DNA of 64,000 nt from Acholoe squamosa. Taxonomy: Eukaryota > Annelida > Polychaeta > Phyllodocida > Polynoidae. Positions 12,896 to 31,320 of this stretch are shown here, in pieces. How positions within the stretch are numbered: the first letter of the stretch is position 1; every line of letters begins with the position of its first letter. Where the stretch lies: positions 15,987,282 through 16,051,281 of the forward strand of contig OX439039.1 of the NCBI GenBank assembly GCA_949317995.1, written 5' to 3'. The notes under the pieces are model-generated. The model did not search any database. It was given only the letters and a program-made list of their open reading frames with translations, and was not told the DNA's origin. The position numbers and the translations under genes were made by a program.

Positions 12896-13288
12896 AGTAG
12901 TATATACATGCAAACTGAGCGCAATGGATTAGCTACTAACTAGGTCATGACCTACTGGTAGACCGGAAGTGACCTAGTTTTAACCAATCAGAGGGCTGGA
13001 TTTGACAGGAAGTGACGTCATAAGGTTATGACCTAGTTTTTTCGACCAATCAGAGAGCTGGATTCCATTTGACCTAGTGACCTGACCTAGATGCATAAAT
13101 TAAAAGAATTGTGCAATACCTAGAGCTGACCTACTTACAAACCGGAAGTGACCTACTAACCTACTTGCAAAAACGTATGACCTACGTATGAGGGTGTATT
13201 GTGCAATCCTTGAAAGAAATTACACAATAACCATGACTCATTTTCTGATGCAATGTTCCTATGAATTTACGCAATACTTATGACTCAC
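12896..13288 (+). repeat. Left TIR of element A
   Basis: Inverse of 30930-31320. The outer 300 bp are almost identical between the ends; the inner part differs more. It carries AGGTCATGACCT (12942-12953), ACCGGAAGT (12962-12970 and 13141-13149), TGACGTCA (13013-13020), CCAAT boxes (12984-12988, 13046-13050) and many further TGACCT half-sites. Confidence 0.95.
12942..13050. promoter_or_regulatory. Cluster of host transcription-factor-like sites in TIR
   Basis: In about 110 bp there is a palindromic nuclear-receptor element (AGGTCA inverted without spacer), an ETS consensus ACCGGAAGT, a full CRE palindrome TGACGTCA and two CCAAT boxes. The right TIR has the same cluster inverted. Adenovirus end repeats also carry host-factor sites that serve replication and transcription. 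That these sites are bound here is an inference. Confidence 0.5.
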
Positions 13289-13428: not shown

Positions 13429-13854
13429 TTATATAGAAAATGAATTCTTGTTGCAGTACCAACTGCACCCGGTCTTGGCTGGAGTAGGACTTTGACTACG
13501 GTCCTCTAAGGCCCGCATTCTCTCCATTAAATCCTTCAAGGCCTTTCTTCCTATGTCGTTCTCCTCCAGGGCTACCACTTTGTCCATTAACTCGGCCATG
13601 ATGATGAGAATCTTGTCTATTACTTCCGCCGTGCTCTGAAGCCCGTCTATCACGTCCAGTTCACGTTTAACTTTTCCTTTCACCAAAAGATTGCTCACGT
13701 CTGCTTTGACTGCTACTTCTTCTGGACTCATCTCGAAATTCATTGCCTCTTCTTCTCTCTTTTTCTCAGGAAGGGCCTGACTATTTTGTCCATTAAGTTG
13801 AAGGGGACCTGAGAAAACCTTTTCACAGTGTGGTGTGGATCCTTGGTTCGACAT
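13429..13854 (-). CDS. Small helical protein, last late gene
   Basis: Open frame of 141 aa whose function I do not recognise. Two starts are possible. The upstream ATG (13852-13854) lies inside the protease gene. The internal ATG (13741-13743) overlaps the protease stop as ATGA and would give 104 aa. The decayed copy in element B has a similar short frame starting MSN inside its protease (53160), which mildly favours the long form, although the overlapping protease codons could also explain that. The body is rich in Glu, Lys and Leu and has heptad-like hydrophobic spacing (about residues 50-120), so it is probably mostly helical, perhaps coiled-coil. No Cys/His metal site and no membrane segment. 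By position it may be a minor virion or late protein. Confidence 0.55.
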   Translation of the reverse strand: MSNQGSTPHCEKVFSGPLQLNGQNSQALPEKKREEEAMNFEMSPEEVAVKADVSNLLVKGKVKRELDVIDGLQSTAEVIDKILIIMAELMDKVVALEENDIGRKALKDLMERMRALEDRSQSPTPAKTGCSWYCNKNSFSI

Positions 13855-14204
13855 GTTTCTATGAGGAAGTTAATGCAGTGGGCTCCACACGTTTTAGCGT
13901 AAAAGTTTTGCACTTGTTTTCTGCTGAACGACCCGTGACCATCTGACGACTTTTGCATGAACCTCTGGTGATATATAGTAAACGGAGGTAAGCCATAGGG
14001 ATCAAAGTAGAATACATTCCCGTTATGAGAAACGTAAAATGCCACCCAGTGCTGACCAGGTTTAGAGCTTGGATCTGTGTTACTGACGAAACATGTAGAG
14101 GGAATTGGTTTTTTAGGACATTGATTACTGGCAAAAGTTCCCAGGTAGAAACGTCTTGTGTGTGGATGGTTTCCCAGTGCACCTGTTATGTCTGAAGTTC
14201 TCAT
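13740..14204 (-). CDS. PRO: Adenovirus-type maturation cysteine protease
   Basis: 154 aa, the size expected for Polinton proteases. The motifs follow the order of the adenain (C5) family: His52 in GQHWVAFYV, Asp68 in YFDPYG, a Gln near residue 97-99, and Cys106 in AKTCGAHC, giving the His-Asp-Gln-Cys catalytic set. Family members cleave capsid and core precursors during virion maturation, and this is the strongest sign, with the capsid genes, that Polintons form or once formed particles. The gene follows the major capsid gene with only 8 bases between, and its stop overlaps the internal ATG of the next gene. The frame is intact. The decayed homologue in element B (52868-53260) retains the Cys region. 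Confidence 0.93.
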   Translation of the reverse strand: MRTSDITGALGNHPHTRRFYLGTFASNQCPKKPIPSTCFVSNTDPSSKPGQHWVAFYVSHNGNVFYFDPYGLPPFTIYHQRFMQKSSDGHGSFSRKQVQNFYAKTCGAHCINFLIETCRTKDPHHTVKRFSQVPFNLMDKIVRPFLRKREKKRQ

Positions 14205-14212
14205 TTTTTTTC

Positions 14213-15529
14213 TCAGTTCATGTGGTAGTCTGTGACAGGAAGACAGTCAGCCGTTAGTTGGATGTTGTTGTCGTAGAAGGAACACAAGACGGCAGATATG
14301 GCGAGAGTAGTCGGGGCGGCAAACCTAAGGGAAATGCCCAGCTTTCCTTGCTTGATGAGATTTATACGACTGTCTTCAGGTGCTCTGTCTGGGGTGAAGT
14401 CGAAAACAAAGAAGGAATATCCATCTTTGAAATCTTCCAAAGTTATGCCACAGTCTTGCCCCAAAGCCGACAGCCCACTGTCTATGAACATTTGACTGTA
14501 GGCTCTGATGCAGTTGCCTGTTTCGAAGTCGGTCTTCAACTCAAACTTTTGATCGTCATATCTCACGCATATTTCCTTCACGTTGAAATGCCTGCAGTTG
14601 AAAGGATTTTCTGTCTTAGTCCCAGCAGCTGCTGTTTCCTTTATCATACACAAGACTATCCTGGTGGGGATCTGAGTAGTGTCAGGTTGAGTCCAACTGT
14701 AGTCTTGTGAGCCACCGTCCAAAGTGTGTTTAGTTACTTTACACCTGGCTATGTGATAGTTGAAAGGGCCCCAATGTGGATTCCTGACACTGCTGACGTG
14801 AGTTTTCACCACCTCGTCGTCGACACATTTTTGGAGAAGTGTCATTTCAGCTTTGGTGATTTTGACCCAGTAGTTTTGATCGGCTGCTTGCATCATGTAG
14901 TAATTGGGCTGATTTTTTTCGAATATGAACTTGATTTCACAGTTCGGAGGCAGCACCTTGCACTGTTTAATTAAATCCAGGTGCGGCTTCATTACTAAGG
15001 CATGCTTGTTGCGGGCACTGAACTCTGCTCTCCGTGCCGTCCATCCAGCATTTTCGCCCGCTCTGGCTTCCATGTGACCACAGGTGTCTTTCATGTACTT
15101 TTGACACCCTTTCAACCGAGTCTTTTTGTCTTCTTTGTTGCAACAAATTGTGTCCAAAATGTAGGCCTTGAGACCATAGTCTTCATTGTTGCCGGTGACT
15201 TTCTCCCCATTTATCAGCAACTGGCAGGAAGCAAAGAGAGCGTGTGCCAAGTTGTTGACTGGAGCAGCTTCTATGCCAACGGCAAGGTGAGTTGTTCCGT
15301 CTGCCGCCACGGCTTCCAGTTCCATGTACAGCTCAGTTTCTGAGAGGTCTGTGTACAGGTTGCTTGGTTCGAAGGTGAAGTCAAATGATTCAGTGTGTGG
15401 AGTCAGGGCATTGTTGGTAGTTTTGGTTATTTTTTGACATTTTGATATGTCCTTTTGAGTGACAGGCAAGGCGTGTAGGTCTAGTTCACCTACTGCACAT
15501 ACCTGACCCTTGGGATGAAGGAGACTCAT
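14213..15529 (-). CDS. MCP: Major capsid protein (double jelly-roll)
   Basis: 438 aa, intact. It resembles the widespread Polinton capsid proteins often annotated as F54H12.2-like. Recognisable landmarks are the N-terminal E-L-D-L-H-A-L-P motif, LYTDLSETELYMELE (about residues 58-72), PVNNLAHALF (about 88-97) followed by a short stretch on an inner strand, and the C-terminal VTDYHMN. Family knowledge says that these proteins fold as a double jelly-roll and build hexon-like trimers of an icosahedral shell. It lies between the core protein gene (2 bases upstream) and the protease. The element B remnant (51629-52799) shares the central PVNNLAH and the final DYHMN, which confirms the frame. It acts in virion assembly. 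Confidence 0.9.
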   Translation of the reverse strand: MSLLHPKGQVCAVGELDLHALPVTQKDISKCQKITKTTNNALTPHTESFDFTFEPSNLYTDLSETELYMELEAVAADGTTHLAVGIEAAPVNNLAHALFASCQLLINGEKVTGNNEDYGLKAYILDTICCNKEDKKTRLKGCQKYMKDTCGHMEARAGENAGWTARRAEFSARNKHALVMKPHLDLIKQCKVLPPNCEIKFIFEKNQPNYYMMQAADQNYWVKITKAEMTLLQKCVDDEVVKTHVSSVRNPHWGPFNYHIARCKVTKHTLDGGSQDYSWTQPDTTQIPTRIVLCMIKETAAAGTKTENPFNCRHFNVKEICVRYDDQKFELKTDFETGNCIRAYSQMFIDSGLSALGQDCGITLEDFKDGYSFFVFDFTPDRAPEDSRINLIKQGKLGISLRFAAPTTLAISAVLCSFYDNNIQLTADCLPVTDYHMN

Positions 15530-15531
15530 GA

Positions 15532-16126: not shown

Positions 16127-17350
16127 TTAGTGACTGGCAGATATATCAAGCTGGAAACTCATGGTTTGCATGTCGCCGTTGTAGCGATTTATGTTGATTT
16201 GCCTCAGAAGGGGTGCTTTAGAATCACCCACAAGACTGTGCTTGACTATGTCAGAGTACACGAAAGCACATCGACTTTTGTACTGAAGGTCTACCACGTA
16301 GGGGCTTTGTGTTTTTCCACTTAGGAAAACACTTCCGTCAAAACCTAATTGTTTCCCTAAGTTTTCTGGGAGTTGCATGACCACACCAGGAGGCAAGGAA
16401 ACTACACTTTTCATTGTGTATTTGTTGTAGTGAAACACGGTGGCTTTGTTGTTTTTCCTGTAGTTTCTTAGTTTTCTCACCAACATGCTTTGTAGTTTAT
16501 TTATGGTCCTGTTCAAGTATCCTATCAACTCTGAGTTGCTTTCCAGGTTCACACCTTCTAAGGCAAACATATTGTAGATACTACCTTCCTTGAAGTAATA
16601 CTTAGACAGGTATCTGCTAATTTCCTTGAAGCGTGTACGTATTTTCACAGCCTGTAACTGACTGGGAGAGAGCGGAGAAACATTAGCAGAGTCTGTGAAG
16701 ACGGCCTTTTCTTCAAAAAAAGAAAGAGACCTTTTTTCCCTGTCATCCATAGACATCACTTCAGCCACAGCCGACGATATTTCCCTTTTCTCTCTGCCTG
16801 CCGTGTCACGCTCCCCCTCATCCTCCTCCTCTTCCTTTTCCTCCTTCTCTGGCGTGGGTTGGTTAGAAGTGAATCCTCCAGATGGCGTCTCAGTCGCAGC
16901 AGCAGGAGTTGGTGGACTTTCACTTGCAGGACCAGCAGGAGGAATGGTTTCAGTCGATCCCACAGGGTTGACATGACGTAGGTTTTTTGTTATTTTTACT
17001 CCTCTCTTCAAAGCAGATTGGGCTGATAAATTTGATGTAGAGCTTGAAGCTCTACTGAAGACACTATGGGCTCCTGGTTTTTCCAGAGGAAAAAATTCTC
17101 TTCTGCGTTTGTTCAATAAAGCTACTACAGAGCGGAGGTTGTTTGTCAGGTCGTTTTCTCCCTGTACCAAGAGAATGGGTTCTTCTTTGACGTTGTACCA
17201 CGTGGTAGGACAGGTTATTTCTTGAAGAGCACACTCTAACTGAGTAGGAGAGTTAATGTATTCTGCCAAAATTGTATTGTAACTAGTTAAAGTGTTGTCA
17301 GGAAAAACGTTCATAGATGAGTTACTAGGTAAAGTTAAGGTAAACGCCAT
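16127..17350 (-). CDS. Penton/minor capsid protein, frame broken near the end
   Basis: Single jelly-roll penton-type protein of Polintons. The start MAFTLTLPSNSSMNVFPDNT matches the usual N-terminal LPSNSSxxxxPDNT of this family, so I prefer ATG 17348-17350 to the ATG 27 bases upstream. CPTTWYNV (about residues 46-53) is a second landmark. The middle (about residues 130-230) is low-complexity, Pro/Ser/Glu-rich. The frame stops at 16127 inside a short AT run, but another frame continues to about 16013 with a translation that matches the C-terminus seen in element B (50965-51192, ending in VTLQLRP). The last 40 or so residues of the jelly-roll are therefore out of frame. This is either a real inactivating indel or a sequencing error. 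It overlaps the integrase end by 16 bases. Confidence 0.85.
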   Translation of the reverse strand: MAFTLTLPSNSSMNVFPDNTLTSYNTILAEYINSPTQLECALQEITCPTTWYNVKEEPILLVQGENDLTNNLRSVVALLNKRRREFFPLEKPGAHSVFSRASSSTSNLSAQSALKRGVKITKNLRHVNPVGSTETIPPAGPASESPPTPAAATETPSGGFTSNQPTPEKEEKEEEEDEGERDTAGREKREISSAVAEVMSMDDREKRSLSFFEEKAVFTDSANVSPLSPSQLQAVKIRTRFKEISRYLSKYYFKEGSIYNMFALEGVNLESNSELIGYLNRTINKLQSMLVRKLRNYRKNNKATVFHYNKYTMKSVVSLPPGVVMQLPENLGKQLGFDGSVFLSGKTQSPYVVDLQYKSRCAFVYSDIVKHSLVGDSKAPLLRQININRYNGDMQTMSFQLDISASH

Positions 17351-18414
17351 TTGTTTATGTTCTTGACAGGTTCCCAAGAGTTAAACTTGTCTCCGTAACC
17401 CTTCCACTTGATCAAGGCTTCTCTTTTCTTGCCTTTTCCTCTGTATTTTACTATTTTTTCTATGTTGTAGCGTCTTCCGTGACGGACTTGCACCTTCTGA
17501 ACTTCAGGTTCGTAAAAGCTTCCTTTTATCTCTTCTCCAAGGAGATCTTTCAGGTGGTACCCTTTGGGCGAAATGTTGTCGACTGTGTATATTTCCTCAG
17601 TCCAGTTAGGTTCGTACCCTCTGTTAAATGTTTTCTTTGTTTTCAACATTCGCACTTGATTTTTTCTCTTCAACTGAAGGACAGGAACTTTTTTCTTTTG
17701 AGGTTGATCGTACAACCTGTAGAACAAGACTTCAGAGTTGCCTTTATTTATGTCTGAAGGGGCAGCTCCTAAGGATTTGTGGTAAGTCAAATTGTAGGAC
17801 TTAACCAAGTCGGGCAGCAAGTCAACCCATTTGTAGTTATTGAAATGAGAGAAACATCTCCACATTTTTCCTTGTAAAGTAGAGTTGAATCTTTCGGCTA
17901 AGGCACACTTCACGTCGTCGTTCTCTCCTGTGAAAAAATTGAATATTTGATCTTCACAGTGTTTTTTGAAAATTTTGTTGACAAACTCTTTGCCCTTGTC
18001 AGTTTGAATTTGTTGAGGTTTTCTTTCTTTGCTCATTTTTTTGAAAGCCTCTGTCACGTCATCAGCTCTCTTACTTTTCACAGGTTGTCCAAAACCATAC
18101 CTTGAAAAAACATCTATTCCCGCTAGAATGTACTGGTATCCTTTGTTTTCCTTTGAAAATTCTCGCATGTCTATGAGGTCAAGTTGCCACTGTTTGTCTA
18201 TCCCCCATGTTTGTGTTTTTCTTCTTGGAAATCTTCTCTTGTAAGGTTTGTGTCTGGTGTAAGCGTCTACATCTTCCAAAGCTTGTTCTATGTTTTTTTT
18301 CTTTGTTTTCTTGAAGTGATGACGTTGAAGTTTAGATACGCTGGTGAAACTTCCAGGTTGTTTAGGATCTGTGTAAAACCTGAGGACATCTTTTTTCAAA
18401 GCCTTGTGCGCCAT
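17335..18414 (-). CDS. INT: Polinton integrase with C-terminal chromodomain
   Basis: 359 aa, intact. The N-terminal part contains the VLRFYTDPKQPGSF and DVDAYTRHKP segments typical of Polinton integrases. The catalytic core has Asp79 (WQLDLID), Asp139 (QTDKGKEF) and Glu174 (ALAERFN), a D,D-35-E triad as in retroviral integrases. The C-terminal 50 residues form a chromodomain (YNIEKIVKYRG...ALIKWKGY...NSWEPV), which could guide insertion to modified chromatin. The enzyme joins element ends to target DNA with 6-bp staggering, consistent with the CCTGTG duplication. The start overlaps the preceding gene by 19 bases. The element B copy has lost the catalytic Glu. Confidence 0.95.
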   Translation of the reverse strand: MAHKALKKDVLRFYTDPKQPGSFTSVSKLQRHHFKKTKKKNIEQALEDVDAYTRHKPYKRRFPRRKTQTWGIDKQWQLDLIDMREFSKENKGYQYILAGIDVFSRYGFGQPVKSKRADDVTEAFKKMSKERKPQQIQTDKGKEFVNKIFKKHCEDQIFNFFTGENDDVKCALAERFNSTLQGKMWRCFSHFNNYKWVDLLPDLVKSYNLTYHKSLGAAPSDINKGNSEVLFYRLYDQPQKKKVPVLQLKRKNQVRMLKTKKTFNRGYEPNWTEEIYTVDNISPKGYHLKDLLGEEIKGSFYEPEVQKVQVRHGRRYNIEKIVKYRGKGKKREALIKWKGYGDKFNSWEPVKNINKWRLP

Positions 18415-19352
18415 ATAAACTTACGTCCAGTTCCTTTTTGACTTACTTTCCTCTTCTTAATAGGGGAAGCTCTTTTCAAGGGACTGGCAGCAAAGGAAGG
18501 ACTGTGCCCTGCAAAAGCCGACTTGTTTTTGACAAATTTTAAGGTGGGGTTCAGCCTTTTAACTGCTCTCATGAAAACCTGGCTTCCTTTAGGTTGGTCC
18601 TTTTTCAAAGACTTTGGTCGGGCAGCAAAAGCTAACAAATCTGTTATGTCAGTTCCAGGCACACGTTCCCCGTTAACATATATTTCTCCGTCTCTGTTCC
18701 AATTCAAAATTTCACTTCCGTGACGAGATAATTCTCTGTAGAGATTTTTAGCAGTCGTTCTGTAACTTGCAGGTATTCTTTCTTTTATGTTGGCGTCCAT
18801 ACCCTCTGTGTTGTCTCTTGCACGAGGTTTAAAGCCTTCCTCCCCTTTGAACTCGTCTACACTGTCTCCGTCTGAATCGTCAGGAAGTGGTGGATCGTCT
18901 CTAGTCTCTGTGAAAGTGTGGTCATCATCGTCGTCGCCGTCGTCGGTGTCTTCTAAAGAATTGTTTACACCCCCAGCTGCTGCTGCTGCTGCTCCTGCAG
19001 GGCCTTGTCCTACTGCTCGACCAGGATAGGGACCTTCCCTACGTTGTCCTAAGGCCTTGGCTTTTTTAGTTAAAATTCCCGACTTTATCATAAGTTGATT
19101 GTACTGCCTTAACTTTTCCTTCAGTTTGAGGTTAGGAGAGTTAAGCACCTCATGTGCTTTACTTTGAAGGTGGTTCAGGACTTGAACCAGGCTGGAATCA
19201 GGAGTTAAACCTTCTCTTAAAAGTTGAGTGCTGTAGTACTGGTCTTGAACACTAGGTCCAGGCTGGGGAGGAGAGGAAGGACTAACAAAAGAAGGTTTTT
19301 TTTCTCGGGGAACAAGATCCGCCCTTACGAGGGCCATCCTTGAATAAGACAT
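18396..19352 (-). CDS. Conserved acidic Polinton protein of unknown function
   Basis: 318 aa. The N-terminal 60 residues are Pro/Ser-rich. Residues 60-100 are helical (HLQSKAHEVLNSPN...LKEKLRQYNQLM). An Ala run and an Asp-rich stretch (TDDGDDDDDHTFTETRDD) follow at about 120-160. The best-structured part is about residues 195-250 (IPASYRTTAKNLYREL...ILNWNRDGEIYVNGE...TDITDLL), a block I believe recurs beside integrase genes in other Polintons. The C-terminus is basic. The function is not known to me. Position between the small hydrophobic-tail protein and integrase suggests a virion or late role. It has no recognisable counterpart left in element B, where a deletion removed it. Confidence 0.7.
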   Translation of the reverse strand: MSYSRMALVRADLVPREKKPSFVSPSSPPQPGPSVQDQYYSTQLLREGLTPDSSLVQVLNHLQSKAHEVLNSPNLKLKEKLRQYNQLMIKSGILTKKAKALGQRREGPYPGRAVGQGPAGAAAAAAGGVNNSLEDTDDGDDDDDHTFTETRDDPPLPDDSDGDSVDEFKGEEGFKPRARDNTEGMDANIKERIPASYRTTAKNLYRELSRHGSEILNWNRDGEIYVNGERVPGTDITDLLAFAARPKSLKKDQPKGSQVFMRAVKRLNPTLKFVKNKSAFAGHSPSFAASPLKRASPIKKRKVSQKGTGRKFIWRTRL

Positions 19353-19358
19353 GATTTT

Positions 19359-19724
19359 TTATCGACGTGCTCCTATGAGACCTGTTATCAGGGGTAAGGC
19401 AAGGCCCAAAATGGTTCCCAAAAATCCACCCTTTTGCTCAAAGGGTTTCCTCTTCTGCTTAACGGTAGCCTTGTGCCTTGTGACTGACTTGAGTTCTTTC
19501 TTGTAGGGTGATAAACGTTTGACTGCGTCGGACTCGTTACGCAACAGGTTTTTGTTCATTACGTTGACGCAAATTTGACTCATCAACCTAATGACCTCAT
19601 CGCTGAGACCTTTGATAATGTGGGAACACTCTGCCGAGGAACACTTGGATATGTGTTTCAACAAGTGGTAATGTTTCCTTATTGTTTTAAATTTTCCTCC
19701 AGAAGGAGATCTTTTGGTCACCAT
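19359..19724 (-). CDS. Small basic protein with Gly-rich hydrophobic tail
   Basis: 121 aa. The N-terminal half is basic and helical, with HLLKHISKCSSAECSHII. The middle is Lys/Arg-rich. The C-terminus, QKGGFLGTILGLALPLITGL, is a Gly-rich hydrophobic helix that could enter a membrane. From memory, proteins of this kind, ending in QRGGFL plus a hydrophobic stretch, are common next to the ATPase in metazoan Polintons; no function is established that I know of. In element B the same N-terminal helix (LAKCSPEDCEHLI) is joined directly to integrase by a deletion. Spacing to the neighbours is tight: 1 base to the ATPase stop and 6 bases to the next start. Confidence 0.75.
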   Translation of the reverse strand: MVTKRSPSGGKFKTIRKHYHLLKHISKCSSAECSHIIKGLSDEVIRLMSQICVNVMNKNLLRNESDAVKRLSPYKKELKSVTRHKATVKQKRKPFEQKGGFLGTILGLALPLITGLIGARR

Positions 19725-19725
19725 T

Positions 19726-20415
19726 CTATCTTTTTCTTTTCGAAGCTGAAGCTTGAGGAATGAAAACCAAGGTGTTCCAAGGAGTTGTTATGCTGTTTCT
19801 TACCCTAAGCTCGTTAGGTGTGCTCTGCTTAAAGTCCAATAGGATGTATGAATGTTTCTCTTTGGTTTCTGAGTTATATACCTCCGTCAAAAAGGATTTC
19901 TGTCCTGGAAAGGCCTGTTTGCTTATGTGCCCTATCTGACTCATGTCTCTAGGGTTTTTAAAAACAACTAGGTAGTGTGCATTTAAGCTCAAGGTTCTGA
20001 AGGCAGGATTGTTGAAAAACAAGTTTTGAGTAACAAAAATTACACTTAAACTGCGATGGTGAGAGCCCACAGTGAAAAGTTTCATTATGGTGGGAACGTA
20101 CTCGGGATCCATGAGATCGTCTATTACGACCAGTCCATGTTTAGTCACGTCTCTTTCATCCTCGAACAAAAAGTTTTCTGAAAGAAGACCTTTGTTAAAC
20201 TTAACCCCCAACTTCGCCATTTCGTCGAATCCATCTTGCCATTGACTGTAGCAGTAGTATATGTCGTGTATTTTTGGAGTAACAAGCTCGTCTACACCTT
20301 TAATCAACTTGAAAACAAGTTGACTTTTCCCACAAGAAGTTGGTCCAGCTATGATCATTGTGAAGGGGCTTTGTAGACGTGGGTCAAAAATGATCTCCTT
20401 TTCCTTGTGATCCAT
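19726..20415 (-). CDS. ATP: FtsK/HerA-type genome-packaging ATPase
   Basis: 229 aa from the ATG at 20413-20415; an ATG 39 bases upstream would overlap the preceding gene and adds no conserved residue. Walker A is GPTSCGKS (residues 24-31) and Walker B is LVVIDDLM (about 94-102). FVTQNLF and NAHYLVVFKNPRD follow, typical of the A32-like packaging ATPases of Polintons and large DNA viruses. It drives the genome into the preformed capsid. The C-terminus is basic (SASKRKR). The element B copy has lost the segment with the P-loop. The gene starts 13 bases after the Death-domain gene stops, so the two are probably co-transcribed. Confidence 0.93.
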   Translation of the reverse strand: MDHKEKEIIFDPRLQSPFTMIIAGPTSCGKSQLVFKLIKGVDELVTPKIHDIYYCYSQWQDGFDEMAKLGVKFNKGLLSENFLFEDERDVTKHGLVVIDDLMDPEYVPTIMKLFTVGSHHRSLSVIFVTQNLFFNNPAFRTLSLNAHYLVVFKNPRDMSQIGHISKQAFPGQKSFLTEVYNSETKEKHSYILLDFKQSTPNELRVRNSITTPWNTLVFIPQASASKRKR

Positions 20416-20428
20416 GTTGGACGATATC

Positions 20429-21058
20429 TTAAACCAAAGTGACCAAAGGAGCAACCTCGGCCTCTTTTAAACCAGTAGAACCCTTGTTCAAACCTTCCAC
20501 GTAAAGAGCTACATCAGAAAGTCCCATGTTGTATAGACTGGCTATTAGGCAGCTTGGATGAGATATTTCTCTATATTTCCAAACCATCAGAACTTCGAAT
20601 ACAGGATTTGTGACACCTTTTTTCCCTGGAACAGGGGTGGATATCAGGTTAAGCTCGTGGTCGCTCAATCCAAGTTGAGTTCCCAGTTTCCTCCAGTCAA
20701 GCATTTCGAACTTGTCTGCCAGGTTGACGAACAAAGTATCAACTTTCCACTGTTCTGGAGGAATTTCACAATGGTCCACTACGTTGTAATATCCCATGTA
20801 CCATCTACAATAATCAGTTAGATCGTAACGACCTATGTCACTTAATGCATGTCTCAATACCATCCACTTGCAACGTACGTTCTTTCTGCTCCATGAAATA
20901 AGCATTTCTCTCCCCATAGAACGAAGAGACGGTATTTTTTCCATGTAATCCATTAAACTTAGTCTAAGTCCTAAGTAAACCCCTAATCTAGGGTAGTCTT
21001 TTTCAGATATTTTTTCACTGACCTTGAATAACAACTCGTCCGAAAGGTGAAACTCCAT
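20429..21058 (-). CDS. Tandem Death-domain protein
   Basis: 209 aa from the ATG at 21056-21058 (an upstream ATG adds 9 residues). Two Death-fold domains lie in a row. Domain 1 (about residues 4-85) reads LSDELLFKVSEKI...YPRLGVYLGL...MLISWSRKN...ALSDIGRYDLTDY, following the six-helix Death-domain pattern with LG.xLGL, the mid W and the final GRxDL. Domain 2 (about 105-190) reads TLFVNLADKF..LDWRKLGTQLGLSDHEL...VLMVWKYRE...SLYNMGLSDVALYV, with the hallmark DW..LG..LGL. Death domains mediate homotypic assembly in apoptosis and innate immune signalling. A virus-derived protein made only of two such domains recalls viral FLIPs, which have two death-effector domains, so interference with host cell death is a reasonable inference. 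A TATAAG-type box lies about 90 bp upstream. Confidence 0.88.
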   Translation of the reverse strand: MEFHLSDELLFKVSEKISEKDYPRLGVYLGLRLSLMDYMEKIPSLRSMGREMLISWSRKNVRCKWMVLRHALSDIGRYDLTDYCRWYMGYYNVVDHCEIPPEQWKVDTLFVNLADKFEMLDWRKLGTQLGLSDHELNLISTPVPGKKGVTNPVFEVLMVWKYREISHPSCLIASLYNMGLSDVALYVEGLNKGSTGLKEAEVAPLVTLV

Positions 21059-21144
21059 AGCGTCCAAATAAAAGGTGTTGAGCAAGTAAGGTAGGCAGGT
21101 AGGAAGGCAGGTAGGTTATGACAGGCTAGAAAGCATACAGTTGA

Positions 21145-21152
21145 CTTATATA
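21145..21152 (-). promoter_or_regulatory. TATA box for the Death-domain/late block
   Basis: TATATAAG on the minus strand, 87 bp upstream of the ATG at 21058, with no ATG in the right place to compete. It is the only good TATA element before the leftward block of tightly spaced genes. The overlapping late genes may also use internal promoters or spliced mRNAs. Confidence 0.6.
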
Positions 21153-21400
21153 TGGTAGGGTAGGGTAGGGTAGGGTAGGGTAGGGTAGGGTAGGTGGGTA
21201 GGTGGTTTAGGTGGGTGGGTGGGTGGGTGGGTTAGGTGGGTTATTTTGGGCGGCCAGCCTGGGCCAACAAGCCCCAAACCCCCCATACTTGAGGGGTGCC
21301 CCCACCCCCCCACCCCATAGTTTTTTAAACCCAACCCCACCCTTTCCTACCCTACCCTACCCTACCCTACCCTACCCTACCCTATATTATCCTACCCTAT
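21150..21400. repeat. (TAGGG)n / (CCCTA)n inverted array
   Basis: About eight TAGGG units at 21154-21193, a GGTGGGTGGG run to about 21240, and after a short spacer eight CCCTA units at 21345-21387. The arms can pair, and the G-rich strand could form G-quadruplexes. It lies directly upstream of the late TATA box, between two leftward genes. The same pentamer occurs in the TIRs of relic C. Confidence 0.8.
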
Positions 21401-21484
21401 TCTATCCTAATCTATATATCTCTCCCATTCCCTTCCCCCTGTTTAGGTAAGCATGTTACATCGTTCTTCGTTCGTTTAAATTTG

Positions 21485-22108
21485 TTATGACGTTGAGTGT
21501 AAAGCGAGCTGATTGTGGTGAAAACAGTGAGTAAGGGAGATAAGCTGGGTGCACCACATAGCCAGATAAAACCAAACTTTTTCTTTCTCCTCTACACTGA
21601 AACGATCCAGGGACGATGATGGGATGTGAAATATGGGGCAGGAGGAAAACAAAGTTTTGGTTTCTAAGCACTCAGCTAGAAGTTCCAAAATAGACATGAA
21701 GAAATGAAGACGCTGGTTAAGTAGGCGGGGATTTTCTTTGGCGTGATGCTCTTCTGCCGCTTTCAATGCTTCCAAATGGAAGGGGTTTTTCAGTGGGCCC
21801 TTTCCCTTTCTTCCATGCTTCAGGGCATAACCCAAGGTTTCCACCGCTGAAAATTTCGACAAGTTATGACTCAAAACCATTTTCCTCAAGGTTTTTCGGT
21901 CTTTGGATGTAAAACTTGATTGCACTGAAGAAAAAACTAAGTATAATTTTTTCCGGTGAAGAACACATTCTTTCAAGTATTTGCACACGTACCTGAAACA
22001 AATTGAAGAGCAACATATAATTTCATTTCTTTCCCTCACGTATGTCAGAACTTGAGTGTCGTCGGGGTGACGTTGTTCTAATACACGCTGCAGGGAGTAA
22101 CGCGACAT
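21485..22108 (-). CDS. Unknown helical protein of element A
   Basis: 207 aa, function not recognised. It is Leu/Lys/His/Cys-rich and predicted helical by eye. The first 60 residues include RYVCKYLKECVLHRKKLYLV; the middle has FTSKDRKTLRKMVLSHNLSK; about residues 125-150 are RLLNQRLHFFMSILELLAECL, an amphipathic helix. I looked for BH motifs of Bcl-2 proteins and for death-fold signatures and found none that convince. A good TATA box (TATAAAG, 22161-22167) lies 53 bp upstream of the ATG, which supports a real, separately expressed gene. Together with the next gene and the Death-domain gene it forms an accessory zone between capsid genes and the early block, where viruses often keep host-interaction genes. 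Confidence 0.65.
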   Translation of the reverse strand: MSRYSLQRVLEQRHPDDTQVLTYVRERNEIICCSSICFRYVCKYLKECVLHRKKLYLVFSSVQSSFTSKDRKTLRKMVLSHNLSKFSAVETLGYALKHGRKGKGPLKNPFHLEALKAAEEHHAKENPRLLNQRLHFFMSILELLAECLETKTLFSSCPIFHIPSSSLDRFSVEEKEKVWFYLAMWCTQLISLTHCFHHNQLALHSTS

Positions 22109-22160
22109 AGTAGGTCGAAGGTTGTCGTGTCAAATAACGATGGTTTAGTCCCCGTTTAAC

Positions 22161-22167
22161 CTTTATA
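22161..22167 (-). promoter_or_regulatory. TATA box for the 207-aa gene
   Basis: TATAAAG on the minus strand, 53 bp upstream of the ATG at 22108, suitable spacing for initiation about 25-30 bp downstream. No other TATA element is visible in this intergenic stretch. Confidence 0.6.
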
Positions 22168-22343
22168 GGAAACCTGTCAGTCTTTCCTTATCGCACTTTC
22201 CTGAAATGATTTATTGCTCAAGGACGAAACAAACGTCAGGGTCAGTGCCTGAGCGTTCTGAAAAGAGGGGAAAACATGTGGAAGGGTGGGTTTGGCCCAG
22301 GGGCCTTACCCGGAGGATCATCGTTTATTTTTGTTCAGTTTTA

Positions 22344-23000
22344 TTAGGAGGACCAAAAATTAGATACGGGGTAGGCTGTTACCACCTTCAGCTGACCTTT
22401 TTCATGGGAGGTAGTTATTTCAGTTATAACTCTCACAACATGACAGCATCCATGGTAATTGTGTCCAATTTCTGTCCTGAATCCTCTTTCATAGAAAATT
22501 TTTGAACCTAAAGAGTGTGTAATTTTGTCTGGGTGAAGTAAAGTGGCTTTAATTAAAGCCTTCACCATAGTAGAATCGATGAAAACTGAATTACCCGGCC
22601 CTCCCCCCAAAGGTTGAACCCTTAGAAAAAAGGGTTTTTGTCTGTCTGAAATGAATTTCTTTGAACTTCCAGAGGAAATGGAATGTCTAGACATCAAGTG
22701 TACCATGGCACCATGTCCCAAAAGAACACCTGAAAAAAAACTTTCCCCATTTTCTGAGATAAGTTTTTTCACAGAGGGTCCACCAGGAACCAATGCAGTG
22801 GTTTGGTTGTGCAGAAAGCATTGTTTGAAGTTACAGTTAGGAGGGATGTAAAGATCCCTGTTCAAATTTTCAGGACAGAATTTCCACACAGACCACACCT
22901 TACCTTCTTCTACGCCCCTCCTGATGTCTGAAATAAACACCTCCTGACGCCTTTTGTGACCTACGGTCAAAGACAAAGGCAAAGGACAAAAGTTAGCCAT
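22344..23000 (-). CDS. Unknown protein, possibly a nuclease-like C-terminus
   Basis: 218 aa, function not recognised. The N-terminal half includes NLNRDLYIPPNCNFKQCFLH and SGVLLGHGAMVHLMSRHSIS. The C-terminal 50 residues (FRTEIGHNYHGCCHVVRV...GQLKVVTAYPVSNF) recall the ending of BECR-fold RNase domains (phage Barnase/EndoU/ColicinE5/RelE-like), which commonly finish with a His/Arg strand and a TAYPx motif. This is a resemblance by eye only. The gene is leftward and shares the divergent intergenic region 23001-23397 with the rightward early gene, so it may be expressed early. The frame is intact, without repeats or low complexity, which supports a real gene. Confidence 0.6.
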   Translation of the reverse strand: MANFCPLPLSLTVGHKRRQEVFISDIRRGVEEGKVWSVWKFCPENLNRDLYIPPNCNFKQCFLHNQTTALVPGGPSVKKLISENGESFFSGVLLGHGAMVHLMSRHSISSGSSKKFISDRQKPFFLRVQPLGGGPGNSVFIDSTMVKALIKATLLHPDKITHSLGSKIFYERGFRTEIGHNYHGCCHVVRVITEITTSHEKGQLKVVTAYPVSNFWSS

Positions 23001-23397
23001 GTCTGCTTGAGAGAAGCTAGTTCTGATAAATGACGAATGGTCTGCGTTAATTACAGAATGGTAACAACAAGATTCGTTTTACAAGCCTCACCCTGAACGT
23101 TGACTGAACGTTATCACGTTTTTTATTTGAGTTAAGCTTTTTACTTTTTTCCAAAACAACACTGACTAAGTGTAAAACATACTATGAATGGAAAAGCACG
23201 GTTATCTACGACTCATGGACGTGGTTGTACGTTATCTGAACGACAAGGGAACGTCCCAGCATCGTATCAGGATAGTTACTATAAAGTAGACTTGAGCTGC
23301 TCGATCTTCATCAAACCTTTTCTGACGTTTGTCTGCTGTTCGCCGTCCTGCTCCTGCACCTTCCAGCCCTGCCACCCTTTCATCTTCAAGGAGAACA
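23001..23397. promoter_or_regulatory. Divergent intergenic region
   Basis: Separates leftward from rightward genes of element A, so it should hold two promoters. GAACGTT occurs twice close together (23096-23117) and ACGTTATC twice (about 23111 and 23230). No clear TATA box. The open frame of the early gene extends upstream into it without an ATG until 23398. Confidence 0.45.
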
Positions 23398-24414
23398 ATG
23401 CCTGGTCGCATGAAGACGGGACTTAGTGTCAGGAGAGGAGGAGCTAAAAAACTGGCTCCACTAACTTTTACTACTTCTAAACAGACAGAGGAAAAGGCGT
23501 CGGGCATCGCCCCTCCTCCTACCTCTCCAGCCTCACCTGATAAACCACCTGCAACTCCTGCTCGGCTTCCAACTGAAGTGCCTGATGCAGGAGAACAGGA
23601 AGCCGCTCTTGCAGCTCTTCATGGCGAAATCACTGATTTCCTGGATCGCGTCCGGGATCGCTCTCCTCAGGAAGCTGGCGACGGCGATTTTGACATCAGG
23701 GAATACATCAATCCCCCGGCACCTTTGAACTACCAACCCCCCACTGAAGCACCTACGTCCGCCTCTTACTCACCCGTGACTCCGGAGGAACCTTCTCCCC
23801 AGGTCAGTCCAATAAAGGTTATAGACCTTACAACCTCATCACCGGCAGTTAAACCCATAGAAGTGGTGGGCTTAACACAAGGGACACCTTCACCTGCTCA
23901 CCGCGGGGGGTATTCGCAGGTAGAGGTTATAGATTTAACCGGCCCTTCTCCTCTGTACTCTCTCCCGGTTCCGGTAGAGGAGCTGCTTCTTAAAAGCCCG
24001 CCGGAAAAAAGAAACTGTTCCAGTGAGAGAGAAGGGGAGCCTAAGAAAAAAAGACAGAAGCGCGCCTACCACAAGAAAACCCCTGTCTCTACCCCTGCTT
24101 CAGTTTCCTCAGCGACTTCATCCTATGGTGCCGAGCCAATTGGTTCTGTCCCAGGTGTTCCTTCTCCTAAAGACAAGTCACACAGGCAAAAGTTTGGGGA
24201 GGGCACTGCCCCCAGTTCTTCCAGCAAGCTTGTGGGCTTTAGGTCAGTGCCTTTGGTGGTAAAAAAGTGGCCTGCTCGATTTGGTTTCCAAGAAAAGTCA
24301 CCTGCCCCCAACCAAGTTTTTTATCCGGAAGGGGATAACAACGCCTGCATAGAAATATACAGGGAACCTAGCATCAGGGGAGTATGCTTGAGAACCTACC
24401 TGGACAAACCTTAG
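23398..24414 (+). CDS. Pro/Ser-rich early protein with SUMO-interacting motifs
   Basis: 339 aa from the first ATG (23398); the frame is open further upstream but without ATG. Three copies of a SUMO-interacting-motif pattern occur in its middle: KVIDLTTSS, EVVGLTQGT and EVIDLTGPS, each preceded by a hydrophobic residue. V-I-D-L-T is the classic core bound by SUMO. A nuclear localisation signal (KKKRQKRAYHKK) follows. The rest is disordered, Pro/Ser/Thr-rich. Such proteins are typical of nuclear viral regulators that visit PML bodies or SUMO-modified repressors; that role is inferred. The frame continues past the TAG at 24412-24414 without shift for another 129 codons, see the next entry. Confidence 0.75.
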   Translation: MPGRMKTGLSVRRGGAKKLAPLTFTTSKQTEEKASGIAPPPTSPASPDKPPATPARLPTEVPDAGEQEAALAALHGEITDFLDRVRDRSPQEAGDGDFDIREYINPPAPLNYQPPTEAPTSASYSPVTPEEPSPQVSPIKVIDLTTSSPAVKPIEVVGLTQGTPSPAHRGGYSQVEVIDLTGPSPLYSLPVPVEELLLKSPPEKRNCSSEREGEPKKKRQKRAYHKKTPVSTPASVSSATSSYGAEPIGSVPGVPSPKDKSHRQKFGEGTAPSSSSKLVGFRSVPLVVKKWPARFGFQEKSPAPNQVFYPEGDNNACIEIYREPSIRGVCLRTYLDKP

Positions 24415-24801
24415 GAGCGGTGCTTGAACCTAGAGGCGCGTGAATTCAGGAACTTAGTGGACCAGATAGAGTGCATCCTAGGAAAGTACAAGGAGTTACA
24501 CCGCCTAGCTGCCCTTGGAGAGAGGAAGGTGGATAATCTTTTGTTGTCCTTGAACCAAGACTGCACCGACCCCAGTGGAGGCCGGGCTATGGTCCTGGTA
24601 AACTTGTACAAGGGAACTCCTAAAGTTCACATAGGAACAACCAGCTACGTGGAGGAAATGAATGCCTCGGTGTCTTCCAGCTTCAGAATGCCCCCCTCAG
24701 CCACACACTGCGGACACACTGTGTCCCCCTTCATTCTGGAGGACATAAAATCACGAGTTGGTCCCTTCCTAGACGAAACGACCGATTTCTACTCTGGGTA
24801 A
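24415..24801 (+). CDS. In-frame continuation of the early protein after TAG
   Basis: Same reading frame as the preceding gene, separated only by one TAG, with no ATG until well inside. About 128 codons: the first half is helical (REFRNLVDQIECILGKYKEL), and the second half (RAMVLVNLYKGTPKVHIGTT) looks like a folded domain. It is probably the C-terminal part of one protein, cut off by a nonsense mutation, or reached by stop-codon readthrough or splicing. The frame ends at TAA 24799-24801, which lies inside GTAAGT (24798-24803), a perfect 5' splice-site sequence after TGG. So the reading could also leave by an intron here. I cannot decide between these. Confidence 0.55.
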   Translation, partial: ERCLNLEAREFRNLVDQIECILGKYKELHRLAALGERKVDNLLLSLNQDCTDPSGGRAMVLVNLYKGTPKVHIGTTSYVEEMNASVSSSFRMPPSATHCGHTVSPFILEDIKSRVGPFLDETTDFYSG

Positions 24802-24991: not shown

Positions 24992-25033
24992 GAACATAAA
25001 GTGAAACAAGAAAAAGAAACCTTAAAAAAAAAA

Positions 25034-25201: not shown

Positions 25202-25212
25202 AAAAAAATTCT

Positions 25213-28200
25213 TTGCATAAAAGCAGTTACCGTGACAACTTCAAGTCCATAGCTTCAGGTTTGGCTGTGCTTGGTAAGCTTCAGTCCATTTTCAACGTCA
25301 GAATGACAAGTTTCAACTTGGGAGCCAAACAGGTAATAGAGGCGCTTACCTCTATTCATAGAAATCAAGTTATGGCTTACAAAGTGGCTGTCTCTTTTGG
25401 AAGGTTGTTGTCTTCCTCTAAGGAGGAAGAAGAAGAAGAGAAAGTCATGTACTTTCATGCTTCTGCCAACAACTCGTCTTTGTTCTATGACAGTGAAAGC
25501 CATAGAGACCCTTACATTTTTATAAGGGACGACAAAGACTTTGCAGAGTGTTTAGATTTAATAGAAAACAACATTAAAGAAGACACTCAAAGACCCTCTA
25601 CTAAATGGAGTGTAATAGGCAACGTGAACGCCAACATCACACTGATAAGGGCTACGGGAGGAGAATATCTTTTAGGTAAAATGAAAACTGTTCCACCAGG
25701 TTTAAGACAAAGAGGAATGCAACACTTTCACAGAGACCCTAAAACCAAAAGGGCGTACAAGGACAACTTGTGTTTCTTTAGATGTCTGTCTTTCTTCCTG
25801 TATGAATCTTTAGAAAAAACTCAAGAGCTTTTCCTTGAAGCCTATCCAGGGGTGAACAAGGAGACTTTTGAGGGTGTTAACATAAGAGATTTAGACAGGT
25901 TAGAAAAAATGTTTGAAGTTAACATAAGAATCTTTTACCTTCCCTCTTTTGGTAAAAGAAAGGGGCGACCTAAAATTATAAGGTCAAACATGTGTTCATC
26001 CAAAAAAATCATGAACTTGAACTTACACAGAAACCATGTAAGTTTAATAACTAACATGGGACTGTATGGTAAAATGTACCCCTGTGAAAAGTGTCATAAA
26101 GTTTTCACTCGTAGCTTCCTTTTGAAACAACACAATGGGGTGAAAAAAGATTGCACCAAAGTCAGCTTCAGGTACAAAGGTGGAGCATACAATCCATCCA
26201 AAACAGTTTTTCAAGTTTTAGAGGAACTGGGAATAGTTTGTTCACCTGAGAAAAAAATATACCCCTATAAAATTTTTTTTGACTTTGAAAGCTATTTCGT
26301 CCAACCTGAAAATTCGGCCCCAGAAAATGCTAACACTGTGATAGAAAAAACTCACATACCCCTTTCTGCCAGTGTAGCTTCTGATTTTCCTGGGCATACA
26401 GAACCAGTGTGTTTTGTCAGAAATTCCAACAGGGACGACAATCCTTTGGTTAAAAATGTGTTGGAACACATAAACAACTTGGGGCAGTTGATAGGAGAAC
26501 AGGTGAAAGAGAATTTTAGAGATGTTTTAGACGAACTAGACTCTCTAGAAGAAAAACAAAAGGAACTAGAACATAAAGCTAGCAAAGTTTTTCCAGCAAA
26601 GAACAAAAAAAATCCCCAAAAAAAAATCTCCCATGTTCTTGAAGTGAAGGAAAAACTTCTTACCTACATAGAAAGAGTCCCTGTTCTAGGTTTCAACTCT
26701 GGAAAGTATGACATTAATTTGATAAAAAAGGAATTTCATTCTTTTTTTAATGACACAGACAAAACAGAAATGAAAACCATAAAAAAATGCAACAAGTACA
26801 TAGCAGTGTACACAGACCATCTTCTTTTCCTTGACATGTTTAACTATTTGGCACCAGGTTATTCCTACGCAAACTACCTGAAAGCCTTTCTAAAAGGGAA
26901 AGCTGAAAAAGGTTTTTTTCCCTACGAGTGGATGGACAACATAAGAAATCTGAACAACAAAGCTCTTCCTCCACGCCACTGCTTCTACAGTTCTTTGTCG
27001 GGTGGTGGAATAAGCAAAGAAGATTATCTTGAATGTAAAAAGGTCTGGAAAGAAAACAAAATGAAAACTATGAAGGACTACTTGATATATTACAACAACC
27101 TGGATGTTAAACCCTTTGTTTTAGCCATAAACGAGCACACAAAATTTTTTATAGATCGTGGGGTAGACATGTTCAAAGACGGTTTAACTTTGCCAGGTTT
27201 AACCTTGAAGTTTCTTTTCAACAACACTGCACTTAATGCCACTCCTTACATTCTTTTTGGTGAGAAAGAAAAGGATGTTCACTCCTTGCTCAGACGCAAC
27301 TTAGTAGGGGGTCCCTCTATTATTTTTCACAGACATCACAAAAGTGGAGAAACAAGAATAAGACAAAAAAAATACGGGTCACAAAGCAAAGTATGCAGAC
27401 ACATAGTAGGGGTAGATGCTAACAGCTTGTACCTCAAGTGCATGGGTGAAGAGCACTGCACAGGTTATTATGTGGTGCGCAGGAAAGAAAACGATTTTCA
27501 AGCTGTTTGCAGTCAACAAATTAGCTACTCAGCCACAGAATGGTTGCGATACAAAACTGTGACAGACAAAGTCAAGATATTACACCAATACAACTACGGG
27601 GAAGTAGTATTGGGTTCAAGGAAAATAAAAGTGGACGGTTATAATCCAGCTTCAAAAAAAGTATACCAGTTTCACGGGTGCTACTGGCATGGTCACATAT
27701 GTCACCTCACTAAATCAGTTTTGAAAGACCCCAATGGAAAGGCATGGTTAAAAGAAAAAAACCAAAATACCATTTTGACTACCCTATATCTTCAATCGTT
27801 AGGTTACCAAGTAGAGGAAAAGTATGAGTGTATGTGGTTGAAAGAAAAAACTGAAAACTTGTGCAGAGAAACAAAAAGTGAATGGGAAATTAAAAGACCG
27901 TTGTGCCAAGGCAGAAAAAGTCAGGATGAAATACTGAGAGGGGTTTCTAAAGGAACAACTTTTGGACTTATCCAGGTAGACATAGAAACACCTGAATACT
28001 TGAAAGAAAAATTCAGTGAAATGACACCTATTTTCAAAAACTGTTTAGTAGGAAAAAAAGACGTAGGTGAACATATGAAACGTTACCTGGAAGCAGCAGG
28101 TAAGCTAAAACAACCGCAACGCCAACTTATAGGCAGCTACCACGCAGAGGGAATTTTGTTGGGAACTCCTCTCTTGAAGTGGTACCTGGAGAAAGGTTTG

Positions 28201-29169
28201 GTAGTTACGACAGTACACCTTCTCGTAGAATACACTCCAGAACAGACTTTTTTACCCTTCATGGACGAAGTAACCAAAGCTAGGAGGAAGGGCGACGAAA
28301 ATATAGACTGTAAGATTTTGTCAGATCTGTACAAACTTTTGGGAAATGGTTCATACGGAAAAACCATATGCAACAAACAAAACTTTGTTCAAACAAAGTA
28401 TCTTCACCCCTCTAAGGCAAGACGTTTGGCCATGCACTGGTCAGTGCAAGATGTGCAAGACATAAGTGACAACACGGTAGAACTGTCCTGTTTGCCCACC
28501 TCCATCACCTACAACCTCCCAGTTCAAATAGGGTTCATGGTATACCAATATGCCAAACTTAAAATGTTGGCTTTCTATTACGACTTTCTCCTTGAATACA
28601 TAGACGAGAAAGATTTTGAAATGTGTGAAATGGACACTGACAGTTTTTACTTTGCTTTAAGTGCAGAGAAAATAGAAGACGTAATTATTCCTGAAAAACG
28701 TGAAGCTTTCTTCAGAGAACGTCACAAATGGTTGCCCTCTGAATCATGTGACAACAGTCACCACAGAGAGACCTATGTTCAGACCAAAGTATTGGGTGAG
28801 CTGTGGCTGCCTCAACCATGTTGTAAGAGCCGTCTGGCGTTTGACAAGAGAACCCCCGGGTTATTCAAAGTGGAGTGGGAAGGTGACGAAATGACTGCCT
28901 TGAACTCCAAATGTTACATAGGCACAGGAGTAAATGTGCCCGTTAAAATGAGTTGCAAAGGTGTAATTCAAAAACAAAACCCCCTGACCACTGACAAGTA
29001 CAAAGAAGTACTGGACAGTGAAAATGTTGTCACGGTAGTCAACAAAGGATTTAAAGTAGTTAACCACAGCGTTACGACTTACTCTCAAAGGAAACAAGGT
29101 CTAACCTATCAGTACATAAAGAGACAAGTATGTGAAGACGGTGTAAGCACCCTACCCCTTTCTATATGA
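25213..29169 (+). CDS. POLB: Protein-primed family B DNA polymerase
   Basis: 1318 codons counted from a TTG at 25213; the first in-frame ATG is 25303 (codon 31). Order of parts: an OTU-like block with Asp184/Cys187 (DNLCFFRCL) and His275 (NHVSLI); a zinc finger from Cys291 (CEKC...H...C); exonuclease motifs with Asp357/Glu359 (FFDFES), Asp500 (FNSGKYD) and Asp631 (YNNLD); polymerase motif A with Asp735 (VDANSLY), motif B KLLGNGSYG (1041-1049) and motif C Asp1141/Asp1143 (MDTDS). This is the protein-primed B polymerase of Polintons and adintoviruses, which copies the linear element from its ends. All catalytic residues are present and the frame is unbroken. The missing start is best explained by frameshifting from the zinc-ribbon gene or by splicing. 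Confidence 0.95.
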   Translation: MHKSSYRDNFKSIASGLAVLGKLQSIFNVRMTSFNLGAKQVIEALTSIHRNQVMAYKVAVSFGRLLSSSKEEEEEEKVMYFHASANNSSLFYDSESHRDPYIFIRDDKDFAECLDLIENNIKEDTQRPSTKWSVIGNVNANITLIRATGGEYLLGKMKTVPPGLRQRGMQHFHRDPKTKRAYKDNLCFFRCLSFFLYESLEKTQELFLEAYPGVNKETFEGVNIRDLDRLEKMFEVNIRIFYLPSFGKRKGRPKIIRSNMCSSKKIMNLNLHRNHVSLITNMGLYGKMYPCEKCHKVFTRSFLLKQHNGVKKDCTKVSFRYKGGAYNPSKTVFQVLEELGIVCSPEKKIYPYKIFFDFESYFVQPENSAPENANTVIEKTHIPLSASVASDFPGHTEPVCFVRNSNRDDNPLVKNVLEHINNLGQLIGEQVKENFRDVLDELDSLEEKQKELEHKASKVFPAKNKKNPQKKISHVLEVKEKLLTYIERVPVLGFNSGKYDINLIKKEFHSFFNDTDKTEMKTIKKCNKYIAVYTDHLLFLDMFNYLAPGYSYANYLKAFLKGKAEKGFFPYEWMDNIRNLNNKALPPRHCFYSSLSGGGISKEDYLECKKVWKENKMKTMKDYLIYYNNLDVKPFVLAINEHTKFFIDRGVDMFKDGLTLPGLTLKFLFNNTALNATPYILFGEKEKDVHSLLRRNLVGGPSIIFHRHHKSGETRIRQKKYGSQSKVCRHIVGVDANSLYLKCMGEEHCTGYYVVRRKENDFQAVCSQQISYSATEWLRYKTVTDKVKILHQYNYGEVVLGSRKIKVDGYNPASKKVYQFHGCYWHGHICHLTKSVLKDPNGKAWLKEKNQNTILTTLYLQSLGYQVEEKYECMWLKEKTENLCRETKSEWEIKRPLCQGRKSQDEILRGVSKGTTFGLIQVDIETPEYLKEKFSEMTPIFKNCLVGKKDVGEHMKRYLEAAGKLKQPQRQLIGSYHAEGILLGTPLLKWYLEKGLVVTTVHLLVEYTPEQTFLPFMDEVTKARRKGDENIDCKILSDLYKLLGNGSYGKTICNKQNFVQTKYLHPSKARRLAMHWSVQDVQDISDNTVELSCLPTSITYNLPVQIGFMVYQYAKLKMLAFYYDFLLEYIDEKDFEMCEMDTDSFYFALSAEKIEDVIIPEKREAFFRERHKWLPSESCDNSHHRETYVQTKVLGELWLPQPCCKSRLAFDKRTPGLFKVEWEGDEMTALNSKCYIGTGVNVPVKMSCKGVIQKQNPLTTDKYKEVLDSENVVTVVNKGFKVVNHSVTTYSQRKQGLTYQYIKRQVCEDGVSTLPLSI

Positions 29170-30929: not shown

Positions 30930-31320
30930 GACATAACAAAATGAGTCATAAGTATTGCGTAAATCCATAAAAGTATTGCATCAGAACATTGTGTAAATTC
31001 TTACAAGCTTTGCGCAATGCACCCTCATACGTAGGTCATACGTTTTTGCAAGTAGGTTAGTAGGTCACTTCCGGTTTGCAAGTAGGTCAGCTCTAGGTAT
31101 TGCACAATTCTTTTAATTTATGCATCTATGTCAGGTCACTAGGTCAAATGGAATCCAGCTCTCTGATTGGCCAAAAAAACTAGGTCATGACCTTATGACG
31201 TCACTTCCTGTCAAATCCAGCCCTCTGATTGGCTGAAACTAGGTCACTTCCGGTCTACCAGTAGGTCATGACCTAGTTAGTAGCTAATCCATTGCGCTCA
31301 GTTTGCATGTATATACTACT
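30930..31320 (-). repeat. Right TIR of element A
   Basis: Inverse of 12896-13288 with the same ETS, CRE, CCAAT and AGGTCATGACCT motifs. It ends GCATGTATATACTACT at 31320, followed by the target copy CCTGTG (31321-31326). Confidence 0.95.

Follow-up and report, generated by a model that had tools for sequence, protein, structure and literature searches.

Does a Polinton of the polynoid annelid Acholoe squamosa carry a gene with which it could interfere with the cell-death signalling of its host? The question is raised by an open reading frame that the first-pass annotation had described as a Polinton-encoded protein made of two Death domains. The window (the whole 64,000-nt stretch analysed, C5:15987282-16051281 of a 1.48-Gb, 63-contig genome) contains a complete Polinton around this frame, at positions 12896-31320, with 333-bp inverted repeats of 96% identity and the 6-bp target duplication CCTGTG on both sides. 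The features of the element are collected in Table 1. The frame at 14213..15529 is one that we take, by synteny with the other Polintons, to encode the major capsid protein, and that at 25303..29169 presumably encodes a protein-primed DNA polymerase B, judging by its sequence motifs.

Table 1. Features of the Polinton in the window (window positions; both strands)
Feature	Position	Strand	Evidence
Left terminal inverted repeat (AGTAGTATATAC...)	12896..13228	+	Target duplication CCTGTG at 12890-12895
Adenovirus-type protease	13740..14204	-	Peptidase_C5 19.9 bits, E=6.4e-4, slightly under cut-off
Major capsid protein (assumed)	14213..15529	-	Homologs in the second Polinton of the window and in family D; no Pfam match over cut-off
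Integrase, rve and chromodomain	17335..18414	-	rve 39.5 bits, Chromo 35.5 bits
Packaging ATPase (A32-like), starting 13 nt past the Death-domain stop	19726..20415	-	Pox_A32 17.5 bits, under cut-off; homology in 159 of 247 candidates
Tandem Death-domain gene, 209 aa, one open frame	20429..21058	-	ORF list; Pfam Death E=1.4e-13, two stretches
C-terminal Death domain, residues 112-184	20507..20725	-	Half alone 32.4 bits (Pfam); best PDB match FADD Death domain, weak
N-terminal Death domain, residues 12-82	20813..21025	-	Half alone 22.4 bits (Pfam), cut-off 22.6
TATATAAG, TATA-like element ahead of the Death-domain gene	21145..21152	-	Consensus match only
p207, DUF5662-like	21485..22108	-	20.9 bits, below cut-off; homologs upstream of the tandem Death-domain gene in families B, C and D
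Protein-primed DNA polymerase B (presumed), 1288 aa	25303..29169	+	Sequence motifs; no Pfam polymerase match
Right terminal inverted repeat	30988..31320	-	96% to left repeat; target duplication CCTGTG at 31321-31326

Several other structures were seen in and around the element. An 81-bp tandem repeat (29182-29779) lies within it, immediately behind the polymerase gene, and the Polinton as a whole sits in or against an ORF (31273-33411), presumably a reverse transcriptase, whose reading stops at the right end of the element. A second Polinton (45002-53956) is decayed and divergent and has 90% inverted repeats; fragments of its ATPase, integrase, capsid and protease genes, among others, survive at 27-65% identity, and tblastn found no Death-domain gene in it. 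A short element at 1305-6191 looks like a deletion derivative: its inverted repeats are akin to the ends of the Polinton, and remnants of the end of the polymerase lie at 2199-2338 and 4792-4878.

The tandem Death-domain frame runs on the minus strand from an ATG at 21058 to a stop codon at 20431-20429. Compared with Pfam Death (PF00531; cut-off 22.6), the whole protein scored 51.2 bits in two stretches. Of the halves taken alone, the C-terminal one reached E=1e-7 and the N-terminal one E=1.4e-4, the latter with a bit score marginally under the cut-off. The scores of the whole protein and of its halves thus place the two-Death-domain identity well above chance, and the description in the first-pass annotation stands. 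The Pfam scan of the 209-aa protein gave no domain other than Death, with no effector domain attached, and neither half matched the death effector domain (DED) at the Pfam limits used, both being assigned to Death. In sequence searches of the PDB, the C half came nearest to FADD Death domains, weakly (best E=0.0098), and the N half alone gave no Death-domain match, just two unrelated enzymes at E=1.5. The motifs that had been listed for both halves were found in part: LGxxLGL and a tryptophan of the helix-4 type (W56 and W160) occur in each, but DW is confined to the C half (DY in the N half) and GRxDL to the N half (GLSDV in the C half). When 5.8 billion proteins were searched with the 209-aa protein as the single query sequence, none of 170 candidates reached E<=10, and a search of viral_contigs gave no relatives of the Death-domain protein, the ATPase or the polymerase.

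Within the window element the gene stands directly before the packaging ATPase, as had been noted, with 13 nt between its stop codon and the ATPase ATG. It had also been credited with a TATA box of its own. The octamer TATATAAG at 21152-21145 does match the consensus and is the sole TATAWAAR match from 10.85 to 25.5 kb, but the whole window holds 27 such matches vs. 15.2 expected, and single matches are expected by chance. It is uncertain whether the gene would open a putative late block, as the same strand carries two more ORFs, p207 and p218, at 21485-23000 upstream of it. We take p207 and its DUF5662 relatives to be HD hydrolases; in an alignment, an HD pair and an HHP stretch are preserved in the DUF5662 homologs of families B-D (see below). 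In the window p207, HN stands in place of HD and HHP is missing, which suggests that the presumed hydrolase site has been lost. On the strand opposite to the Death-domain gene, a proline-rich ORF of 338 aa (23398-24414) carries repeated V-I-D-L-T motifs that resemble SUMO-interaction motifs.

Copies of the window element (family A) are abundant. A genome search with the 209-aa protein returned 2030 candidates, of which the best 150 were all 99-100% identical over 209/209 residues, with no internal stops. Since this set was chosen by protein score, we took 12 extra places next to ATPase copies (best 150 of 2509 candidates), which by eye were absent from the first list. The gene was present in 12/12; seven copies were gap-free and had no premature stop, two had a premature stop and three had indels, and the stop codon was altered in one of the nine gap-free copies. 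Both element ends were found in nine of 10 copies examined, each with its own, different, perfect 6-bp target duplication; the right end of the tenth lay outside the fetched piece. Near-identical copies and distinct perfect duplications indicate that family A spread recently. A one-off capture that has decayed in all relatives is excluded by the at least 150 intact, near-identical copies and by the retention of the gene in every ATPase-chosen copy. In the copies L029-L048, the left and right inverted repeats of one copy differ at 3-14 of 334 bases (nine copies), and most left repeats are nearer to the left arm of the window element than the right repeats are; the arms thus seem to keep fixed differences, and the age of an insertion is not to be read from how far they diverge.

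The gene is found beyond family A. A genome search with the Death model (best 150 of 1880 candidates) gave single host exons and three repeated groups, counted by eye as 48 matches over profile positions 6-82, 55 over 4-83 and 27 over 2-82, with membership judged from these ranges. Other families of the same genome encode intronless tandem Death-domain proteins that are 20-26% identical to the window protein. Of these we read 21 copies of family B, chosen by score, two of family C and two of family D. Their products have about 200 aa and two Death domains (57-61 bits, one protein of each family), and one frame covers both domains in each family read. They align to the window protein across both halves with 23-26% identity (E 2e-5 to 2e-11) and are 56-75% identical to one another. 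As in the window, the gene is immediately preceded on its strand by a p207 homolog in 20/21 B loci, 2/2 C loci and 2/2 D loci, those of C and D being DUF5662 at 80-82 bits; downstream of the tandem Death-domain gene there are dUTPase genes, recognized by Pfam in B and D and by look in C. In L055, L079 and L081 (families B, C and D), the tandem Death domains gave matches to a second Pfam model, bDLD3 (bacterial Death-like domain 3), of up to 33.9 bits; those of C and D pass the cut-off of this model, 27.1.

In family D, 7 kb of sequence further upstream, read in another copy, contain in order integrase (37-38%), ATPase (32%), capsid (22%), protease (27%) and further genes of Polintons, which identifies D as a divergent Polinton. 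Here the ATPase is grouped with the integrase and capsid genes and is separated from the tandem Death-domain gene by several others. For the proposed search for the same gene next to the ATPase in related Polintons, this gene order rules out ATPase adjacency as a general feature. The same observation bears on the idea that the two Death domains now serve the structure or assembly of the virion, or its packaging machinery, and have ceased to contact the Death-domain proteins of the host. We consider this distinctly improbable: the close spacing to the packaging ATPase in family A, on the strand of the capsid gene, would agree with it, but the neighbours of the gene in family D are DUF5662 and dUTPase, and 18 columns are conserved in at least 14 of the 15 sequences aligned (the host gene described below and one partial piece included).

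Relatives were also obtained from protein collections. An alignment of four families, compared with the 5.8 billion proteins, gave four proteins at E<=1 among 3826 candidates (P0121-P0124, E 4e-47 to 2e-41). They lie on contigs of 1.0-2.7 kb and were taken as element-type because a single frame spans both domains.

To the extent that the sequences can be compared at the codon level, they point to constraint. NG86 estimates of dN and dS were 0.135/1.66 for the pair B-D, 0.31/2.6 for B-C and 0.32/1.9 for C-D, that is, ratios of 0.08-0.17, which are rough because dS is high and near saturation between families; for pairs with the window protein dS was saturated or undefined. Differences between B and D at codon positions 1, 2 and 3 numbered 32, 20 and 85. 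By these estimates the proteins of families B, C and D are under purifying selection. Within family A, changes present in more than one copy were synonymous in 7 of 10 cases among 27 score-chosen copies (P=0.001) and in 5 of 7 among the nine gap-free ATPase-chosen copies (P=0.006), vs. 21% expected, an expectation by sites without transition bias in the model and applied to small counts of shared variants. Single-copy changes in the ATPase-chosen set were synonymous in 7/20 (P=0.11), and the contrast between shared and single-copy changes was non-significant (Fisher p=0.19). The pattern fits constraint before insertion and decay afterwards, the within-family part of it being weak. The supposition that the gene is conserved in active elements is supported by the near-identical copies (at least 150) of family A, by the finding of both ends in 9/10 copies, the relatives in other families and the purifying selection among B, C and D.

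That the gene is a functionless passenger, spread by recent amplification, appears hardly credible. Decay of single inserted copies would agree with it: 5/12 ATPase-chosen copies have a premature stop or indel, 1/21 family-B copies has a stop, and in L060 and L091 the two domains are in different frames. The low dN/dS between B, C and D and the retention of the gene in several families stand against it, and selection between families already largely excludes this reading.

A cellular gene of the same build is present in the genome. At C17:20733958-20734817, a predicted gene model joins an N-type exon (76 bits) and a C-type exon (62-63 bits), as scored with HMMs of the viral halves. In-phase GT...AG sites flank a 299-bp intron between the two Death-domain exons, and the open product has 187 aa. 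A 245-aa ORF downstream of these exons, with an in-phase acceptor, is a possible third exon, in which Pfam found no domain. In the PDB, the host N exon was weakly nearest to PIDD and CRADD (E 0.007-0.011). The viral profiles are matched by further Death domains of the host too, with L092, L085 and L090 at 34-41 bits against the N profile. A genome search with the host gene (best 150 of 1976 candidates) showed C17 as the only place 98-99% identical to its own product, the other 148 of the best 150 matches being 29-39% identical. Among these was a further group, E (72 matches of 200 aa by eye, one of which was read). Upstream of it, two accessory genes known from the D Polinton have homologs (E=7e-11 and 6e-7), and the 1 kb read there holds no p207. 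The search also gave low-copy places, five of which were read (L107 and L109-L112; the open frame of L109 is partial).

The phylogeny with host Death domains that had been suggested as a check was computed from 31 domains, including eight viral-type N and eight viral-type C domains (four from P0121-P0124), with family E and the low-copy proteins left out. Viral N domains join the N domain of the C17 gene (98/95), and viral C domains join its C domain, the latter weakly (71/80.8). Monophyly of all 16 viral-type domains was rejected (p_AU 0.0069), which rules out duplication of one domain inside the virus. Because the viral domains group with the host domain of like position, the tandem build is older than the element families. 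The simplest reading would be that a cellular tandem Death-domain gene was captured by an element, a direction judged from a single host. The window protein and family E form long branches without resolved placement; given these and the weakly supported C-domain link, family A may owe its gene to a separate capture.

In the reverse flow, the single-copy host gene would be a domesticated Polinton gene, for example a restriction factor against these elements. We hold this to be quite unlikely. The grouping of the host N domain with the viral ones (98/95) and the many element copies vs. one host gene are compatible with it, but the host gene has an intron between its two domains, and the grouping of like with like makes the pair older than the families. 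Moreover, in the 12.2 kb around C17 no Polinton protein other than the Death-domain protein itself (E=9e-6) matched below E=0.07.

As the gene apparently derives from an animal gene with the same two-domain make-up and has been retained by several families, these Polintons probably interfere with death or immune signalling. Our preferred reading, to which we give somewhat better than even confidence, is that the elements captured a cellular tandem Death-domain gene and retain it to decoy or hijack Death-domain signalling. A Polinton ancestor would have captured, in intron-free form, the tandem Death-domain part of a cellular adaptor gene, a single-copy relative of which would remain in the host genome, and the element would have retained just the two Death domains. 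The protein would be made during replication and would most likely join the Death-domain oligomer of the cellular protein or of its partners. Without the rest of the cellular protein, it could cap or rewire this oligomer, and the capped oligomer might damp death or NF-kappaB-type signalling during virion production. Binding of the viral protein to a host Death-domain assembly is thus a predicted step, and a block would be the more likely effect than a trigger. TNF-receptor, FADD, MyD88 or PIDD-like assemblies, which the first-pass annotation had proposed as those blocked or hijacked, would be candidates. Matches of an eight-sequence profile in the PDB spread over FADD (best, E=2.7e-9), followed by ankyrin, THOC1, RIPK1, PIDD and TNFR1, so the partner assembly is not nameable from sequence.

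An activating role has also to be weighed, in which the Death domains would nucleate a host oligomer, leading either to cell killing for virion release or to survival signalling. Tandem domains can nucleate helical assemblies, and the viral FLIP K13 switches on NF-kappaB; late expression would be in keeping with the TATA-like box and with a strand that is also that of the capsid and ATPase genes. Pfam shows no effector domain on the protein, though, and a killer gene would be of little use to an element with hundreds of genomic copies unless it were tightly controlled. We regard activation as unlikely.

The decoy or hijacker reading has parallels among known proteins. FADD consists of a DED and a Death domain. 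The Polinton protein resembles it in having two death-fold domains with a short linker and in the rank of FADD chains as the best PDB matches of the eight-sequence profile. It differs in being Death domain plus Death domain, its N half matching Death (22.4 bits) and not the DED that FADD has at its N-terminus, and its nearest host gene is the separate tandem Death-domain gene on C17, not FADD. Most known viral death-fold mimics are herpes- and poxvirus proteins of the DED, CARD or pyrin type, and viral FLIPs consist of two death effector domains. Like the Polinton protein, the viral FLIPs of gammaherpesviruses and molluscum contagiosum virus are composed of two tandem death-fold domains alone and are kin to a cellular adaptor; in contrast to them, the Polinton protein has two Death domains instead of two DEDs, and the viruses are unrelated. 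Viral FLIPs are reported to resemble short c-FLIP and to block caspase-8 activation (PMC9371342). It is by analogy with them that we consider capping or rewiring of a host oligomer the likeliest action of the Polinton protein.

Apoptosis-related genes have been described for other elements. Adintoviruses, which are Polinton-type animal viruses, are said to carry homologs of anti-apoptotic genes or candidate oncogenes, and the word "death" is absent from the main text of that paper (PMC11071296). The Burro giant retrotransposons of planarians carry BIR and BCL2-like motifs (PMC6431247); they are, like the Polinton here, mobile elements with apoptosis-regulation domains, and differ in element class and in the domains. 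A search of a literature collection, in which Maverick matches were judged by title and the start of the abstract, gave no paper linking Polintons or Mavericks with Death domains, and for adintoviruses and apoptosis the match, judged by its listing, concerns an oyster birnavirus.

A broader claim can be made at just short of even confidence, namely that the pair is a lineage-wide Polinton module, to judge by profile search probably present also in other sources, and would be a stripped copy of a single-copy cellular tandem Death-domain adaptor. If so, the cellular gene would be an antiviral or death-signalling hub long fought over by Polintons, and Polintons of this kind would live as cell-death-controlling viruses, beyond being transposons. 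Whether animal Polintons act as viruses that manipulate their hosts is a long-open question. Since one genome holds both a tandem Death-domain gene across Polinton families and a cellular gene with the matching domain pair, host manipulation by Polintons becomes testable, and the uncharacterised host gene on C17 is a candidate target.
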